A stretch of 43,892 nucleotides of DNA from Paracoccaceae bacterium (lineage in GTDB: Bacteria; Pseudomonadota; Alphaproteobacteria; Rhodobacterales; Rhodobacteraceae): positions 1 through 43,892 of the forward strand of contig JABSSD010000184.1 of the NCBI GenBank assembly GCA_013214575.1. The letters run 5' to 3'. A model generated the notes under the pieces. It was not told the origin of the DNA. It was given only the letters and a program-made list of their open reading frames with translations, and ran no database searches. Of the stretch, positions 38,955 through 43,892 are shown piece after piece. Within the stretch, counting starts at the first letter, position 1, and every line of letters begins with the position of its first letter. The translations under genes were made by a program, and so were the position numbers.

Positions 38955-40133
38955 ATGGCATGGCCCAACAACACCCCGCCCCAACGTGATGGCGACGCCG
39001 AGGCAGGCATCGAAGTCAGTGATGATTTTGAGGGCTTTGCCCAACGCAACGACATTTTCAGCCGCGCCTTCTGGGATGATCGGGTGATCTCGAAACACAG
39101 CGCCAAGTTCTTTGCCTCCTACCGGATGGAGGCCGCGCCGCGCCGCGGTGACGGCTTTACCCGCCGCGATTTTGCCCTGCGCAATGCCGCCTGGCTGATC
39201 TCCGACAATGTCTCTAACCGCACTGCCGATCAGGGGCTCCGGCAGGGGTTTCAGGCGCCGATCCAGTCGGACACCCCGGTTGCAGAAGACACCGCCGAGA
39301 TTGATGATCCGGCGCAGATGTCGGCCGAGATCAAACGCGTCGCCACCTTCTTTGGCGCCGATCTTTGTGGTGTCACCGATCTGGATGAACGCTGGCTCTA
39401 TACCAGCCGCGTTGACACCCGCGACATGTCTGACGCACCGCATGATCTGCCCGAGGGCCTGACCAATGTGATCGTGCTGGGCCATGAAATGGATCAGGAA
39501 CTGGTCGCCACCTACCCCTCGGCGCTGGCCGGGGCGGCAACCGGTCGCGAATACAGCCACGAGGCCTCTGTGGTGATGCAACTGGCCGCCTATATCCGCA
39601 ATCTGGGCTATGAGGCGGTGCCGTCGATGAACGACACCGGTCTGGTCATTCCCTATGCGGTCAAGGCGGGCCTGGGCGAATACGCCCGCAACCAGATGGT
39701 GATCACGCCTGAGTTTGGCCCCCGCCTGCGGTTCTCCAAGATCTTTACCAACCTGCCGCTGGCCCATGACAGCGCCAAACCGCAAGGGGTGCGCGATTTT
39801 TGCGACATCTGCACCAAATGCGCCGTGGCCTGCCCGGTCAAGGCGCTGCCCTTTGGCCCGCCTGAGATCGGCGGCAGCAATGTCTCAGCGATCAAGGGCG
39901 TGCGCAAATGGACCTCGAACGCCGAGAAATGTTTCTCGTTCTGGGCAAAAATGTCGTCGGATTGCGCCATCTGCATGCGGGTCTGCCCATTCAACCGCGA
40001 TTTTTCCAAGCTGCATCACCGGTTGTGGCTGAAACTGGCCCTGTCGCCGCTGCGCCATCTGGCGCTGAGACTGTCCAAATCCCATGGCGGACGTCAGAAA
40101 CCGGGCAATTGGTGGACCAAAACCGCCAAGTAA
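38955..40133 (+). CDS. Soluble reductive dehalogenase-like [4Fe-4S] protein
   Basis: This 392-residue protein has the RdhA catalytic-domain pattern. A helical middle with AAYIRNLGYEAVPSMNDTG and PYAVKAGLGEYARNQMVI is followed by a GPRLRFSKIFTNLPL segment. Two cluster motifs follow: C283, C286, C289, C293 (CDICTKCAVACP) and C326, C337, C340, C344 (CAICMRVCP). Such proteins bind a corrinoid and catalyse reductive dehalogenation or related reductions. There is no Tat signal and no RdhB anchor gene, so it is cytoplasmic, unlike respiratory RdhA. The N-terminal 120 residues are unlike RdhA. A chelatase-like gene follows. The substrate is unknown. Confidence 0.75.
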   Translation: MAWPNNTPPQRDGDAEAGIEVSDDFEGFAQRNDIFSRAFWDDRVISKHSAKFFASYRMEAAPRRGDGFTRRDFALRNAAWLISDNVSNRTADQGLRQGFQAPIQSDTPVAEDTAEIDDPAQMSAEIKRVATFFGADLCGVTDLDERWLYTSRVDTRDMSDAPHDLPEGLTNVIVLGHEMDQELVATYPSALAGAATGREYSHEASVVMQLAAYIRNLGYEAVPSMNDTGLVIPYAVKAGLGEYARNQMVITPEFGPRLRFSKIFTNLPLAHDSAKPQGVRDFCDICTKCAVACPVKALPFGPPEIGGSNVSAIKGVRKWTSNAEKCFSFWAKMSSDCAICMRVCPFNRDFSKLHHRLWLKLALSPLRHLALRLSKSHGGRQKPGNWWTKTAK

Positions 40134-40164
40134 CCTATCCTCGACCAGTCAGCCAGTCAGCGAA

Positions 40165-40881
40165 ATGATGATGCCAGACAGACGCCCCATAGCCCTGATC
40201 ACCGCCCACGGCCAACCCTCAGCCCCGCAGCCCCCCGAGGCGGCGCTGGCCCGGCTGGCGGCACAGCTGCAGGACCTTTTGCCAGCGTGGCACATCCGCG
40301 CGGCCACCTTATCAGCGCCGGGCCGGTTTGAGGGTGAACTGACGCCCGGCGCGGTGATCTATCCGTTTTTCATGGCCCGAGGCTGGTTTGCCGGTAAGGT
40401 CCTGAGCCGCCGGATTGGTGAAGTGCCGCATCAGATGGCCTGCCCCTTTGGGCTGGACCCTGCCCTGCCCGCGCTGGTGGCCTCGGCTCTGGAAGACGAA
40501 GTGACCCGGCGCGGCTGGACCGGCCAGAGCTATGAGCTGCTGCTGGCCGCACATGGCTCGGCGCGCGGCCCCAAAGCCGCCCAAGCCGCCGAGGATTTTG
40601 CAACAGCCCTGCGCCCCTTGCTGCCACAGGCCCGGATCACCACCGGATTTGTGGAACAGGAGCCGCTGATTGAAACCGCCGCGCGGGTGTTAAGGGATCG
40701 GGCGCTGTGCCTGCCGTTCTTTGCCCAAGCCGGAGACCACAGCCGCATCGACATTCCACAATCGCTGACCGCGGCTGGATTTACCGATGCCCCCCTGCCA
40801 GTGACCGGCGCCCTTCCGGGGGTCGCCCACTTAATAGCCCGGGCCCTTGAAAACTGCCTTGGCACCAGGGTCACCCGATAA
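40165..40881 (+). CDS. CbiX-like sirohydrochlorin cobaltochelatase family protein
   Basis: The start is uncertain among ATGs at 40165, 40168 and 40171; a longer frame to 40084 overlaps the preceding gene and was not used. The 238 residues form two repeated CbiX halves, each opening with the metal-binding histidine motif: LITAHGQPS near the N-terminus and LLLAAHGSARGP near residue 125. CbiX inserts Co(II) into sirohydrochlorin for anaerobic-type cobalamin synthesis, though such two-domain proteins may have other chelatase roles. It follows the RdhA-like gene by 31 bases on the same strand. tRNA-Cys is 83 bases downstream. Confidence 0.8.
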   Translation: MMMPDRRPIALITAHGQPSAPQPPEAALARLAAQLQDLLPAWHIRAATLSAPGRFEGELTPGAVIYPFFMARGWFAGKVLSRRIGEVPHQMACPFGLDPALPALVASALEDEVTRRGWTGQSYELLLAAHGSARGPKAAQAAEDFATALRPLLPQARITTGFVEQEPLIETAARVLRDRALCLPFFAQAGDHSRIDIPQSLTAAGFTDAPLPVTGALPGVAHLIARALENCLGTRVTR

Positions 40882-40964: not shown

Positions 40965-41038
40965 GGCGAGTTGGCGGAGTGGTTACGCAGCGGATTGCAA
41001 ATCCGTGTACACGAGTTCGATTCTCGTACTCGCCTCCA
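40965..41038 (+). tRNA. tRNA-Cys (GCA anticodon)
   Basis: A full cloverleaf of 74 nt with encoded CCA: acceptor GGCGAGT/ACTCGCC, D stem GCG/CGC, anticodon GCA in the loop TTGCAAA, T stem ACGAG/CTCGT. Its 3' part (40992-41038) is repeated imperfectly at 43524-43570, marking an integrated islet downstream. Confidence 0.96.
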
Positions 41039-41044
41039 AATTAA
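40992..41044 (+). repeat. att site (tRNA side): 3' part of tRNA-Cys
   Basis: This segment (anticodon arm through CCA plus AATTAA) matches 43524-43576 with only three differences in the first 47 bases. It is the side where the intact tRNA has been reconstituted, so it should be the left attachment site of the 2.5-kb islet. Confidence 0.8.
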
Positions 41045-41783
41045 TCCCAAAAACCAAGGGGTTAATCGTAGATAGAATTTTTGCCAAAACTGTCAAAAAC
41101 TTTGACACAACCTTGACACAAGAATTCCCCCCTTGCGCCTATCACACGTCATCCGTGAAATCAGAAGGCATCGGCAACGCGTCGTTGATCACCTGTGCCA
41201 CCTGAATATGCACTCTCACCCCTTCAGCAGTCGCTTGACCTAGGCAAACATGTCTTGCGAAACCATCGATACAGATGTGCTGTCAGCGGCATATCAAACA
41301 AAGTCCGTGCTGGTGCCGTTCCACAGATATTCAACATAGGTTGCACCTTGCAGCATGGAAAATCCGGCCAATGATGCAACCTGAACAAGTCATTCAGAGT
41401 CACTTGTGCACCTGCGGCCTGGCAAAGCGCATGTGTAACCGGCCTACTTGGAGCACTTCAACCTCTTTCAATCCCAGATTCGCACTTGGGCGTGTGCAGC
41501 ATTGTTTTGCGAGCGGGATGAGTTTCGCGATGAATGGAGTGACCAAACGATTAACGCCCGAGCATCTCATCTATTCCAAGATGCGCTGAAAATATGGCCC
41601 ATGGACTGTTGAGATACTTATAGTACAATCCTGAGTAGATTTAACGCCTTGCTTGGACACTCACTCCGTGATTAATTAATTGACAGAGAGATATAACTTC
41701 ACCTGCATATGCCGCCACAGACTGTTGGGTTCCATGCAACGGGTTCGCTCAACCTATAGAAAACGAGTATCGGAGGCGACGCT
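41045..41783. other. Islet left part with no supported gene
   Basis: Direct repeats TTGACACAA at 41102-41110 and 41113-41121 lie 64 bases past the tRNA end. On the minus strand a short frame ending at TGA 41144-41142 reads GVRVHIQVAQVINDALPMPS, which looks like a coding remnant. It is closed by stops after about 45 residues and I do not recognise it. A plus frame at 41275-41589 is Cys/Trp-rich and probably a shadow. No integrase is recognisable. Confidence 0.5.
41102..41121 (+). repeat. Paired 9-bp direct repeat (possible integrase arm sites)
   Basis: TTGACACAA occurs at 41102-41110 and 41113-41121, 11 bases apart. An analogous pair with the same 11-base period lies past the second tRNA-Cys copy (43631-43652). 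Position and period suit arm-type binding sites of a tyrosine integrase. Confidence 0.5.
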
Positions 41784-43361
41784 GTGGATTTATCGAAACT
41801 TGCCGAGCATGTACGGACAACTCATTTCGCGATCGTTGTGGTTAGCGTGACGATCTTGATTGTCGCGCAGACTAGGATAGCCTCGCCCCCCTATGATGCA
41901 CTCAACGAGTTGCTCATCGTTGAGAAGCTGTCGAAAGACTGGACGCCAGGTGACTTGGAAGCGCTTGCGCTTGATGCCTATGCGGACCGTCACGGTGTCA
42001 AGCCGACCCAGAAAATTTCCGGCACGGCTACCCTCTACCCCGAAGGAGACGATACAGAAACGCCTGGGTGGTTTTTCGACGATCCGATTGAGAGTCTGGG
42101 CTATCCAGAAACCGTGCAATTCTCTGCCTCGGCGGTGTCACTACTTTCTGATTCACTCCTATCGAAATGGGAAGAGCTTTCAAATGAGACACTGTCTACT
42201 GGTCGTTATGCCCCACCTAGGGCTCCATACGAAGAAAAAATCGAAGACGGTCCTTACTATCACACCCCACACCGCATGGTAGAATTTCCCCGACCATCTT
42301 CGCTACTCGACTTTGGTGATTTTTGGAATGTACTCTCACTGGATCACAGCCTTCAAACCGTCGAGCCCTCACAGTCAGATATTGCTGGTGTCTTTTCGAT
42401 GACCAAATTCGTCTGGTTTGCGGTTGGCGGCGCTTCCGTTCAGTTTCACCTTAACGAACCCGGAGGGGTGGAAACCGAAGAGGAGGAAACGGCGGCGTAT
42501 TCCCTTTGGACACTTGCTGGCGGACTTCAGAATCGAGGTAGCGCATTTGAGAGCTTGCAAAGCGCAATTCCAACCGACCTCACCGACAGTGATGACTCAG
42601 GCTTCCATTTGCGGGGAGATATTTCGAAATACGTGGGCGAACTCGAGACGAGTTCGAACATGATACTGCATCTCTCTCCCCAGAAGGATTTTGTAGCAAT
42701 GGTTACACTGGGTATTGGGTGGATGGACGCTTGGGATGGGACCCATCCTGCAAAGGACTATTCGGTATTCACGCAGGTTCTGATACCCATCGGGACAAAA
42801 ACCACTCCCTTCGATGCGCAAAGGTTAGTACTGGCGCGTCTGCCGCTTGGAACTCTACATGAGACATCGATCGCCCCAGGTTCCTTTGCGGAGAGTTTTC
42901 CAGCCCTCGAGACATATCATAAGCAGTACGGCACGATGCCGTACGCTGAAATGGACACGCTAATCCGGCAGCAGCTGGAACAGGGGGAACGCGCCGCAGC
43001 AGTTAGCCTGTTCGGTTTGTCCATTCCGATTGGGCTGCTGTCCCTGTTTGGCGGTGCGTTCGTCTTTTTCGCTCAAACCTATCATTACCTTCACGCCGAC
43101 CAGCTGTTTCGTCGCCTCGATACTACAGGAAAGGACAACGCCGTTTGGGGGGTGCCTTGGGTCGGGCTGTATCTCGATCGTGTACTCGCAAGGACTACCG
43201 TGATGCTGACTGCAGTAGTTTTCCCGGCTGGCGCTGTGGCATACACGTTCGCGTCTCTTGCATTGGATGGAGAATGGATCGCCTTGGTGACGCTGCCTGT
43301 AGCGTTAATGTCGTTGAGCACGCTACAGCTGTACTCACAGTTTTGGCGACGTCTTAGATAG
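41784..43361 (+). CDS. Membrane protein of unknown function, islet cargo
   Basis: GTG 41784 behind GGAGG gives 525 residues. One helix lies near the N-terminus (about 14-29) and three near the C-terminus (about 404-430, 470-493, 497-517). The 370-residue part between helix 1 and 2 is acidic and most likely extracytoplasmic; it has no cysteine. The short loop between helices 2 and 3 (LFRRLDTTGK) is probably cytoplasmic. I recognise no family. Codon use and GC are lower than in the core. As the only gene of a tRNA-borne islet, it may be accessory cargo such as a defence or surface factor; that is a guess. Confidence 0.75.
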   Translation: MDLSKLAEHVRTTHFAIVVVSVTILIVAQTRIASPPYDALNELLIVEKLSKDWTPGDLEALALDAYADRHGVKPTQKISGTATLYPEGDDTETPGWFFDDPIESLGYPETVQFSASAVSLLSDSLLSKWEELSNETLSTGRYAPPRAPYEEKIEDGPYYHTPHRMVEFPRPSSLLDFGDFWNVLSLDHSLQTVEPSQSDIAGVFSMTKFVWFAVGGASVQFHLNEPGGVETEEEETAAYSLWTLAGGLQNRGSAFESLQSAIPTDLTDSDDSGFHLRGDISKYVGELETSSNMILHLSPQKDFVAMVTLGIGWMDAWDGTHPAKDYSVFTQVLIPIGTKTTPFDAQRLVLARLPLGTLHETSIAPGSFAESFPALETYHKQYGTMPYAEMDTLIRQQLEQGERAAAVSLFGLSIPIGLLSLFGGAFVFFAQTYHYLHADQLFRRLDTTGKDNAVWGVPWVGLYLDRVLARTTVMLTAVVFPAGAVAYTFASLALDGEWIALVTLPVALMSLSTLQLYSQFWRRLR

Positions 43362-43523
43362 CAGCAATGCCGTAGATGTTCGCTCGCACTGAAATCGACT
43401 GTGTGACAACTTCGATCCAAACCACTGTGTGCATTTTACTTCCTACAGCTAACCTACTGATACCCCACAGGCATCCTACTGGTCATTTTACCAAAAACAT
43501 AAATAGAAACAGTGCAATACTTA

Positions 43524-43576
43524 GGATTGAAAATCCGTGTACACGAGCTCGATTCTCGTACTCTCCTCCAAATTAA
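43524..43576 (+). repeat. att site (distal): degenerate 3' part of tRNA-Cys
   Basis: This copy of the tRNA-Cys 3' part through TCCA and AATTAA has three substitutions in the tRNA-derived part, including C to A at the anticodon base (40998 vs 43530) and a G to T in the acceptor stem. There is no D arm upstream, so no tRNA can form. It marks the right end of the islet at 41039-43570. Confidence 0.8.
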
Positions 43577-43630
43577 CCACGTAAGTCAGCGGGTTAAACG
43601 GAAAATTGGAACTTTCCAGAATAGAAAAAT

Positions 43631-43652
43631 ACCTAGACATAACCTAGACTCA
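43631..43652 (+). repeat. Paired direct repeat past the distal att site
   Basis: ACCTAGACATA at 43631-43641 and ACCTAGACTCA at 43642-43652 repeat with an 11-base period, 61 bases past the distal CCA. They mirror the TTGACACAA pair at 41102-41121, which suggests that a second, related element starts here. The rest of 43362-43791 holds no supported gene. Confidence 0.5.
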
Positions 43653-43791
43653 AGAATTTTCTAAGATTTCCAGTGCACGCCATCCCGCCTATCTGCCGGT
43701 ATAGATTCGCCGCCTGTTGTCGCCCTATAGGCCAATCTGTGGGTATTCACACGGTAATCCCCCCATTTTTAATGGGGCTCAGCCGTAGAAC

Positions 43792-43892
43792 TTACGCGGC
43801 CATTTTCAGTTTCATGGCAGGAGTGATCCCGCCGATGCCCATGTTGGGTCGGTCGTTGTTGTATGTCCATAGCCATTCAGTGGCCTGTTCCT
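43792..43892 (-). CDS. IS3-family transposase, C-terminal part (cut by window edge)
   Basis: Reading the minus strand from the window end gives EQATEWLWTYNNDRPNMGIG, then GITPAMKLKMAA and TAA at 43794-43792. This is the usual C-terminus of IS3-family (IS2/IS3-type) OrfB transposases, whose DDE domain ends with a YN..RP..G.GG.TP pattern. The start and the DDE residues lie beyond the window, so intactness is unknown. Downstream, a G-rich run near 43745-43780 (GGGGGGATTACCG on the minus strand) probably lies in the terminal inverted repeat. Confidence 0.75.
   Translation of the reverse strand, partial: EQATEWLWTYNNDRPNMGIGGITPAMKLKMAA

Follow-up and report, generated by a model that had tools for sequence, protein, structure and literature searches.

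Probable decayed tandem array at tRNA-Cys of a Paracoccaceae bacterium: a probably composite, integrase-less islet and the arm-type-like repeats of its element ends

The usual way to distinguish arrays of elements at tRNA genes is by core and integrase, and small islands at such genes include the phage satellites (P4-like elements, PICI and PLE), which depend on other elements as the first of the two islets described here would. Tandem accretion at tRNA genes and CIMEs (cis-mobilizable elements) that lack an integrase are already known; in the part of PMC5704250 available to us, CIMEs are units with att sites on both sides and no integration or transfer genes, and tandem accretion is modelled in three steps. 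In Dehalococcoides, islands lie in tandem between repeats of the 3' end of an RNA gene, ssrA, 16 with and 15 without an integration module (PMC3146451, in extract). For ICEMlSymR7A, the available portion of PMC11963761 describes an alphaproteobacterial tyrosine integrase, IntS, and an attP with several short arm-type motifs. No paper that treats tRNA-Cys, integrases, Rhodobacterales and genomic islands together was found in the literature searched.

The window, ie the whole stretch of DNA that was analysed (43,892 nucleotides), is all of contig C95 in an assembly of 5.59 Mb and 218 contigs. Three features frame the first islet:
40965-41038, plus strand: intact tRNA-Cys (GCA), the insertion target, called by ARAGORN.
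40992-41038, plus strand: att core at the left end of islet 1, the 3' 47 bases of tRNA-Cys; the same stretch stands at element boundaries in relatives.
43524-43570, plus strand: second att core, which bounds islet 1 on the right and islet 2 on the left; 44/47 identical to tRNA-Cys.

An earlier note, made from the sequence of the window, had described the 3' part of tRNA-Cys recurring with three mismatches and framing a 2,532-base islet with one gene, and this was confirmed. The core at 43524-43570 lies 2,532 bases downstream of that at 40992-41038 and differs from it at 3 positions; a 45-base core pattern, allowed up to 3 mismatches, has 2 matches in the window where 0 are expected (100 shuffles). 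The single long gene between the cores (41784-43361) encodes 525 aa, and the G+C content of the islet is 51%, against 59% for positions 1-40965. Just upstream of tRNA-Cys, the 392-aa product of 38955-40133 combines a reductive-dehalogenase-like stretch (PF13486) with a double 4Fe-4S domain; a CbiX-like gene comes next (40084-40881).

Islet 1 differs from the phage satellites in having no integrase and no capsid-hijacking or regulatory genes; it holds one long gene, to which no PHROGs family corresponds. As in CIMEs, so far as the available part of PMC5704250 describes them, there is att on both sides (cores at 40992 and 43524, from sequence), integration and transfer genes are missing, and the islet stands in tandem with same-site elements. 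Unlike in CIMEs, the ends carry different arm types, so islet 1 may be unable to move as one unit. A left-end search of 394 family genomes found no parental ICE or IME. The array is close in form to the Dehalococcoides ssrA arrays, with islands in tandem between RNA-gene 3'-end repeats, but the extract of PMC3146451 concerns serine recombinases and ssrA, whereas tyrosine integrases (PF00589) and tRNA-Cys are involved here. ICEMlSymR7A, in contrast, is a functional ICE of 502 kb (PMC11963761, in part); the present islets lack an integrase and their arms are predicted.

The tRNA-Cys gene of the relatives is an insertion hot spot for many different mobile elements. With tRNA-Cys and 92 bases of flank as the query, 46 of 61 genomes match. 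Genome G003 has the full tRNA-Cys and four further copies of its 3' end within 144 kb, with a fifth about 0.9 Mb away; extra 3'-end copies also occur in G004, G005 and G006 of the same genus and, in the family, in G012, G014 and G020, among others. The earlier note had proposed a search for an empty site, and none was seen in the genus: an element left end stands behind tRNA-Cys in all six same-genus relatives with a full match (6/6). Integrases apart, no family is common to more than two of the 23 loci behind tRNA-Cys, and the right flank of an empty site could therefore not be fixed. The genome itself has a third core on contig C144 (98%), followed by a DUF6538/PF00589 integrase reading away from the core. 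At C144:9267-9285 there is a 19-base core remnant; the left end behind it holds a single copy of GTTTACA, and the integrase there is of the GTTTACA type. Outside the window, tRNA-Cys fragments were found on C144, C137, C186 and C149.

Several other sequences related to this tRNA were noted. On C137 (22537-22593, minus strand; locus L020) a decayed tRNA-Cys-like sequence, 84% over 57 bases, lies 2.4 kb from an integrase gene at C137:24950-25360. In G003 (L137, G003:C1:2918834-2930153) the intact tRNA-Cys has an integrase-like frame ending about 100 bases upstream of it, and 11 kb further on is a 5' half of tRNA-Cys (93%); a different element class may use the 5' half. The genome studied here has a similar 5' fragment at C186:58306-58345 (88%). 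Cores with complete left ends were also seen 101-113 bases behind tRNA-Asn (L066, G003:C1:3848180; L075, G002:C33:3623), that in G003 being about 0.9 Mb from tRNA-Cys, and these are possibly a secondary attachment site.

The sequences that follow the two cores in the window contain these features:
41039-41160, plus strand: left end of islet 1, homologous to 43571-43690 (global score 81; 72% over 103 bases).
41049-41065, plus strand: candidate accessory left-end motif AAAAACCAAGGGGTTAA, resembling, by eye, AAAATCAATGACTTA of relatives' left ends.
41102-41121, plus strand: arm-type-like direct repeat pair TTGACACAA, period 11 (P 0.020 against its own shuffles).
43571-43752, plus strand: left end of islet 2, from BLAST and the alignment to the left end of islet 1.
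43631-43649, plus strand: arm-type-like direct repeat pair ACCTAGAC, period 11 (P 0.007 against its own shuffles).

AATTAA directly 3' of the core, with paired short repeats of 11-base period 61-64 bases on, had been reported for both copies and was found at both. AATTAA occupies 41039-41044 and 43571-43576; TTGACACAA starts at 41102 and 41113, its first copy 64 bases past the core, and ACCTAGAC at 43631 and 43642, its first copy 61 bases past. The alignment of 41039-41160 with 43571-43690 that had been suggested as a check showed the flanks to be homologous beyond the tRNA: the 130 bases past each core reach a global score of 81, whereas 2,000 dinucleotide shuffles average 14.4 and do not exceed 43.5. 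The BLAST alignment has 72% identity over 103 bases, the first 15 being tRNA. The local score between the two left ends is 38, and that of either against 32 other left ends is at most 23. At the boundary of both islets stands a core that equals the tRNA-Cys 3' end or nearly does, and their repeat pairs, with a period in the 11-12 class, fall between about +36 and +83. Beside the arms islet 1 has no integrase of its own and islet 2 is interrupted by an IS3 fragment before any integrase, a lack shared by some relatives' left ends. By analogy with the elements of relatives, both islets are most likely left ends of tRNA-Cys-specific integrative elements, and it is as two related left ends of this kind that the proposed pair of related elements in tandem at one tRNA is supported.

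Neither the family genomes nor the genome and viral collections yielded an element that has TTGACAC or CCTAGAC left ends together with an integrase, so that the repeats of the two window islets are assigned by analogy, and the longer, integrase-bearing version that the earlier note had suggested looking for did not appear in these searches. An ungapped DNA search of 394 family genomes gave a long match to the window left ends in the genome itself only; in the 393 others there was no long match, two having 19-25 bases, and none of seven same-genus genomes has a long match to the left end of islet 1. An 18-base left-end pattern occurs at 5 loci in the genome collection and 1 in the viral collection. 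Two of these six were read, the other four being in bacteria outside Rhodobacterales, and neither was accepted as the same left end. L146, the sole Rhodobacteraceae locus among the five, has no arm pair by eye, and the viral locus L147 has, by eye, one unpaired TTGACAC inside a tRNA cluster. Repeats beside an integrase end on C137 were likewise rejected; they have a similar look and the opposite orientation, and no core was seen by eye.

Thirty-five left ends were collected, 25 of them distinct. An 8-base repeat pair with a spacing of 10-13 (P<=0.1 against shuffles) is present in 18 of the 25, where 2-3 would be expected by chance; these include both window islets and also L058_10034, which is probably a chance case. 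The remaining 7 show no significant pair. The class seen most often has an integrase gene directed towards the core, with the repeat pair lying between the core and the end of that gene. Eleven of the 13 integrase frames with an arm motif end 66-90 bases past the core, one ends at 19 and one at 785; L053, with its integrase end at 185, was left out of this table by the filter. The motifs vary across elements (TTGAAAC, GTTTACA, GGTATCA, CGCAACA and others). Integrases sharing an arm motif are at least 55% identical, and those with different motifs are below 50% where BLAST aligned the pair, with the exception of TTTTGCA versus GTTTACA (47-61%). In CGCAACA-type elements of five same-genus genomes (L061, L069, L074 and the second cores of L067 and L073) only a short tip, EQNGTET, stands at the left att end; it resembles the end of integrases of other elements and is followed by a stop in 4 of the 5. 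In the CGCAACA-type elements of G003 and G005, tblastn places an integrase-like frame 6.9 and 5.6 kb inside the other end.

The left motif, 7 bases chosen by eye from the left end, is present in the right end of 11 of 13 relatives' elements (at most 6/200 shuffles as good), the 13 pairs not being independent because several of the elements are related. The two without a match are element 4 of G003 (155/200 shuffles) and the G012 element (46/200). For the 11 matching right ends, 0 to 5 of 20 other right ends, some of them related, are equally good. Eight of the 11 have their right sites at -38/-39 and -79 to -91; in L067, L068 and L073 the better site is at -81/-82 and a second is further out. 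The L073 match belongs to a left end without a significant pair (P 0.92), and 5/20 other right ends are as good. When no motif was specified, an exact 8-base repeat in that right-end register was present in only 5/21 right ends.

Because the motif tracks integrase lineage and recurs in the right end (11/13), the repeats are most likely arm-type sites of the integrase. The main alternative, that the period-11 repeats bind a recombination directionality factor (excisionase) and not the integrase, we regard as possible though unlikely. Excisionase sites are typically direct repeats one helix turn apart, as stated in the portion of PMC7498355 available, and the left-end pairs have that form; but the occurrence of the same motif at both ends, widely spaced on the right and following the integrase lineage, is the behaviour expected of arm-type sites. 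In addition, the five IntS arm sites of ICEMlSymR7A, with the consensus TGKTGGTATC (PMC11963761, in part), share GGTATC with one of the types found here.

Between its two ends islet 1 is made up as follows:
41127-41783, no strand assigned: stretch without a convincing gene, 50% G+C, with no detectable integrase remnant.
41784-43361, plus strand: orphan gene of 525 aa, GTG start preceded by GGAGG.
43432-43491, plus strand: right end of islet 1, with CATTTTAC at 43432-43439 and 43484-43491 (-92/-40).

The 525-aa product is predicted to be an orphan membrane protein, the sole cargo of islet 1, with one N-terminal and two or three C-terminal hydrophobic stretches. Pfam, PADLOC and PHROGs gave no family, and NCBIfam gave maltoporin only, below cut-off (17.1 bits against 765). 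A PDB search returned one weak match (27 residues, E 0.0006), and a single-sequence structure model was useless (mean pLDDT 34.5). No relative of the protein was found in 100 relatives or in viral, plasmid and phage collections, none of 18 pattern stretches in the genome collection was confirmed as one, and the genome has no second copy of the gene.

The first reading of the window had noted no visible integrase in islet 1, and this was borne out: among 17 integrase queries there was no convincing match in 41039-43752, the best having E 0.010 over 22 residues, and the same queries recover an integrase piece on contig C15 at E 0. A decayed integrase was also sought in the islets with 602 frames from relatives' loci and was rejected; among the matches listed were tRNA-core and short weak ones. 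The CATTTTAC repeat in the right end is matched in 0/500 shuffles for 8-mers and 7/500 for 7-mers. Its register (-92/-40) is close to that of three GTTTAC-type right ends (-93/-40), and the right end as a whole resembles one on C112 of the same genome (72% over 111 bases). The left arms of islet 1 are TTGACAC, different from CATTTTAC, and TTGACAC in the right end is not beyond chance (50/200 shuffles, 11/20 other right ends as good). Arm sites matched at both ends, the mark of origin from a single element, are thus missing from islet 1. No core remnant that would mark an internal junction was found. The two ends seem to stem from two elements, and islet 1 is read as composite because the left TTGACAC arms and the right-end CATTTTAC differ. 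Most likely, we infer, islet 1 is a composite left by deletion within a tandem array; it would be close to a CIME and not a satellite mobilised as a unit.

Beyond the left end of islet 2 the window closes with one further feature:
43753-43892, minus strand: IS3-family terminal fragment (tail of the transposase gene), running to the contig end and overlapping C15.

The IS3-type end begins near 43753, and the claim that the second element was hit by an IS3-type element is upheld, islet 2 being cut by such a fragment. In a plasmid search, the best 12 of 445 records were from Rhodobacteraceae (Loktanella, Pseudorhodobacter, Sulfitobacter, Phaeobacter and others), most of these 12 matching through the IS3 end alone; by count, Xanthomonas is commonest in the plasmid records (228/445). 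From the best 12, a host in the Rhodobacteraceae is likely. The window's last 99 bases are the same as C15:1-99, and nothing else in the rest of the assembly matches them at full identity; the contig following the window would be C15, a join defined by the 99-base overlap only. On C15 the IS3 fragment stops by about base 135-140, and C15:136-2335 has 97.3% identity to a TTGAAAC-type tRNA-Cys element of G003; the last part of the integrase is missing there, as are the arms and the core. Should the overlap be a true join, islet 2 would have been fused to another tRNA-Cys element through a deletion linked to the IS. A cargo gene of C15 is present in 2 of 10 relatives, not on the contigs with their tRNA-Cys.

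We consider it likely that the stretch belongs to a decayed tandem array at tRNA-Cys, of which it would be the tRNA-proximal part, with islet 1 composite and islet 2 cut by IS3. The elements would use the 3' end of tRNA-Cys as attB, and their left ends would run from the 47-base core through an accessory motif to the paired arm-type repeats, with no integrase left in either islet. Islet 1 (2.5 kb) would most likely have arisen by deletion or recombination between two neighbouring elements, keeping a TTGACAC-type left end, one cargo gene and a TTTAC-type right end. Islet 2 would keep a related, CCTAGAC-type left end, later cut by the IS3-family fragment.

The earlier note had favoured for islet 1 a satellite-like islet mobilised in trans, and this was unsupported. 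An intact satellite- or CIME-like unit without integrase, moved by the integrase of another tRNA-Cys element, would have the cores and arm-like sites at both ends and the intact cargo gene with a ribosome-binding site that are seen here. There are other integrases beside tRNA-Cys cores in the same genome, and in some prophages of relatives, too, no integrase stands at the left att end; two of these have it 6.9 and 5.6 kb inside the other end. Islet 1, however, has different arm sites on the left and on the right, against matching ends in 11/13 relatives' elements, and the second core has 3 mismatches. Nor is there a second copy of the gene in the genome or its relatives, a second copy of the left end, a long left-end match in 393 other family genomes, a relative of the gene in 100 relatives and the collections, or a known integrase with TTGACAC arms among those found. 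We therefore hold mobilisation as a unit to be doubtful.

More improbable is a single integration, with the second left end a duplicate of the first through slippage, recombination or an IS-mediated event. The two window left ends are indeed closer to each other than to any of 32 others, but they have diverged by about 28% over 103 bases, including 15 of tRNA, their arm motifs, in nearly equal register, differ, and directly before the second core stands a right-end structure that has homology elsewhere. A long shot, going beyond the composite remnant preferred here, is that many distantly related integrase lineages share one core while each recognises an arm motif of its own, closely paired at the left end and spaced apart at the right; in that case islet 1 would be an island with two codes, its ends readable by different integrases, mobile only if two resident elements act together, and array remnants would shuttle cargo between element lineages. 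That the second tRNA fragment marks no element boundary and is a tRNA-derived repeat present by chance or scattered in the genome, the case named beforehand as refuting the two-element reading, has next to no probability: other tRNA-Cys fragments do exist in the genome (C144, C137, C186, C149), but 0 are expected by chance, copies in relatives mark element ends, and the homology of the flanks refutes it.

In itself the islet is unremarkable, a remnant that carries an orphan gene for a membrane protein. What is worth keeping is the arm code, which is specific to the element and is read at both ends of a site that the elements share. The arm repeats would provide a second, element-specific label at both ends of an element, and by means of it orphan islets could be assigned to lineages, composites separated from intact units, and the arm specificity of integrases predicted from sequence.
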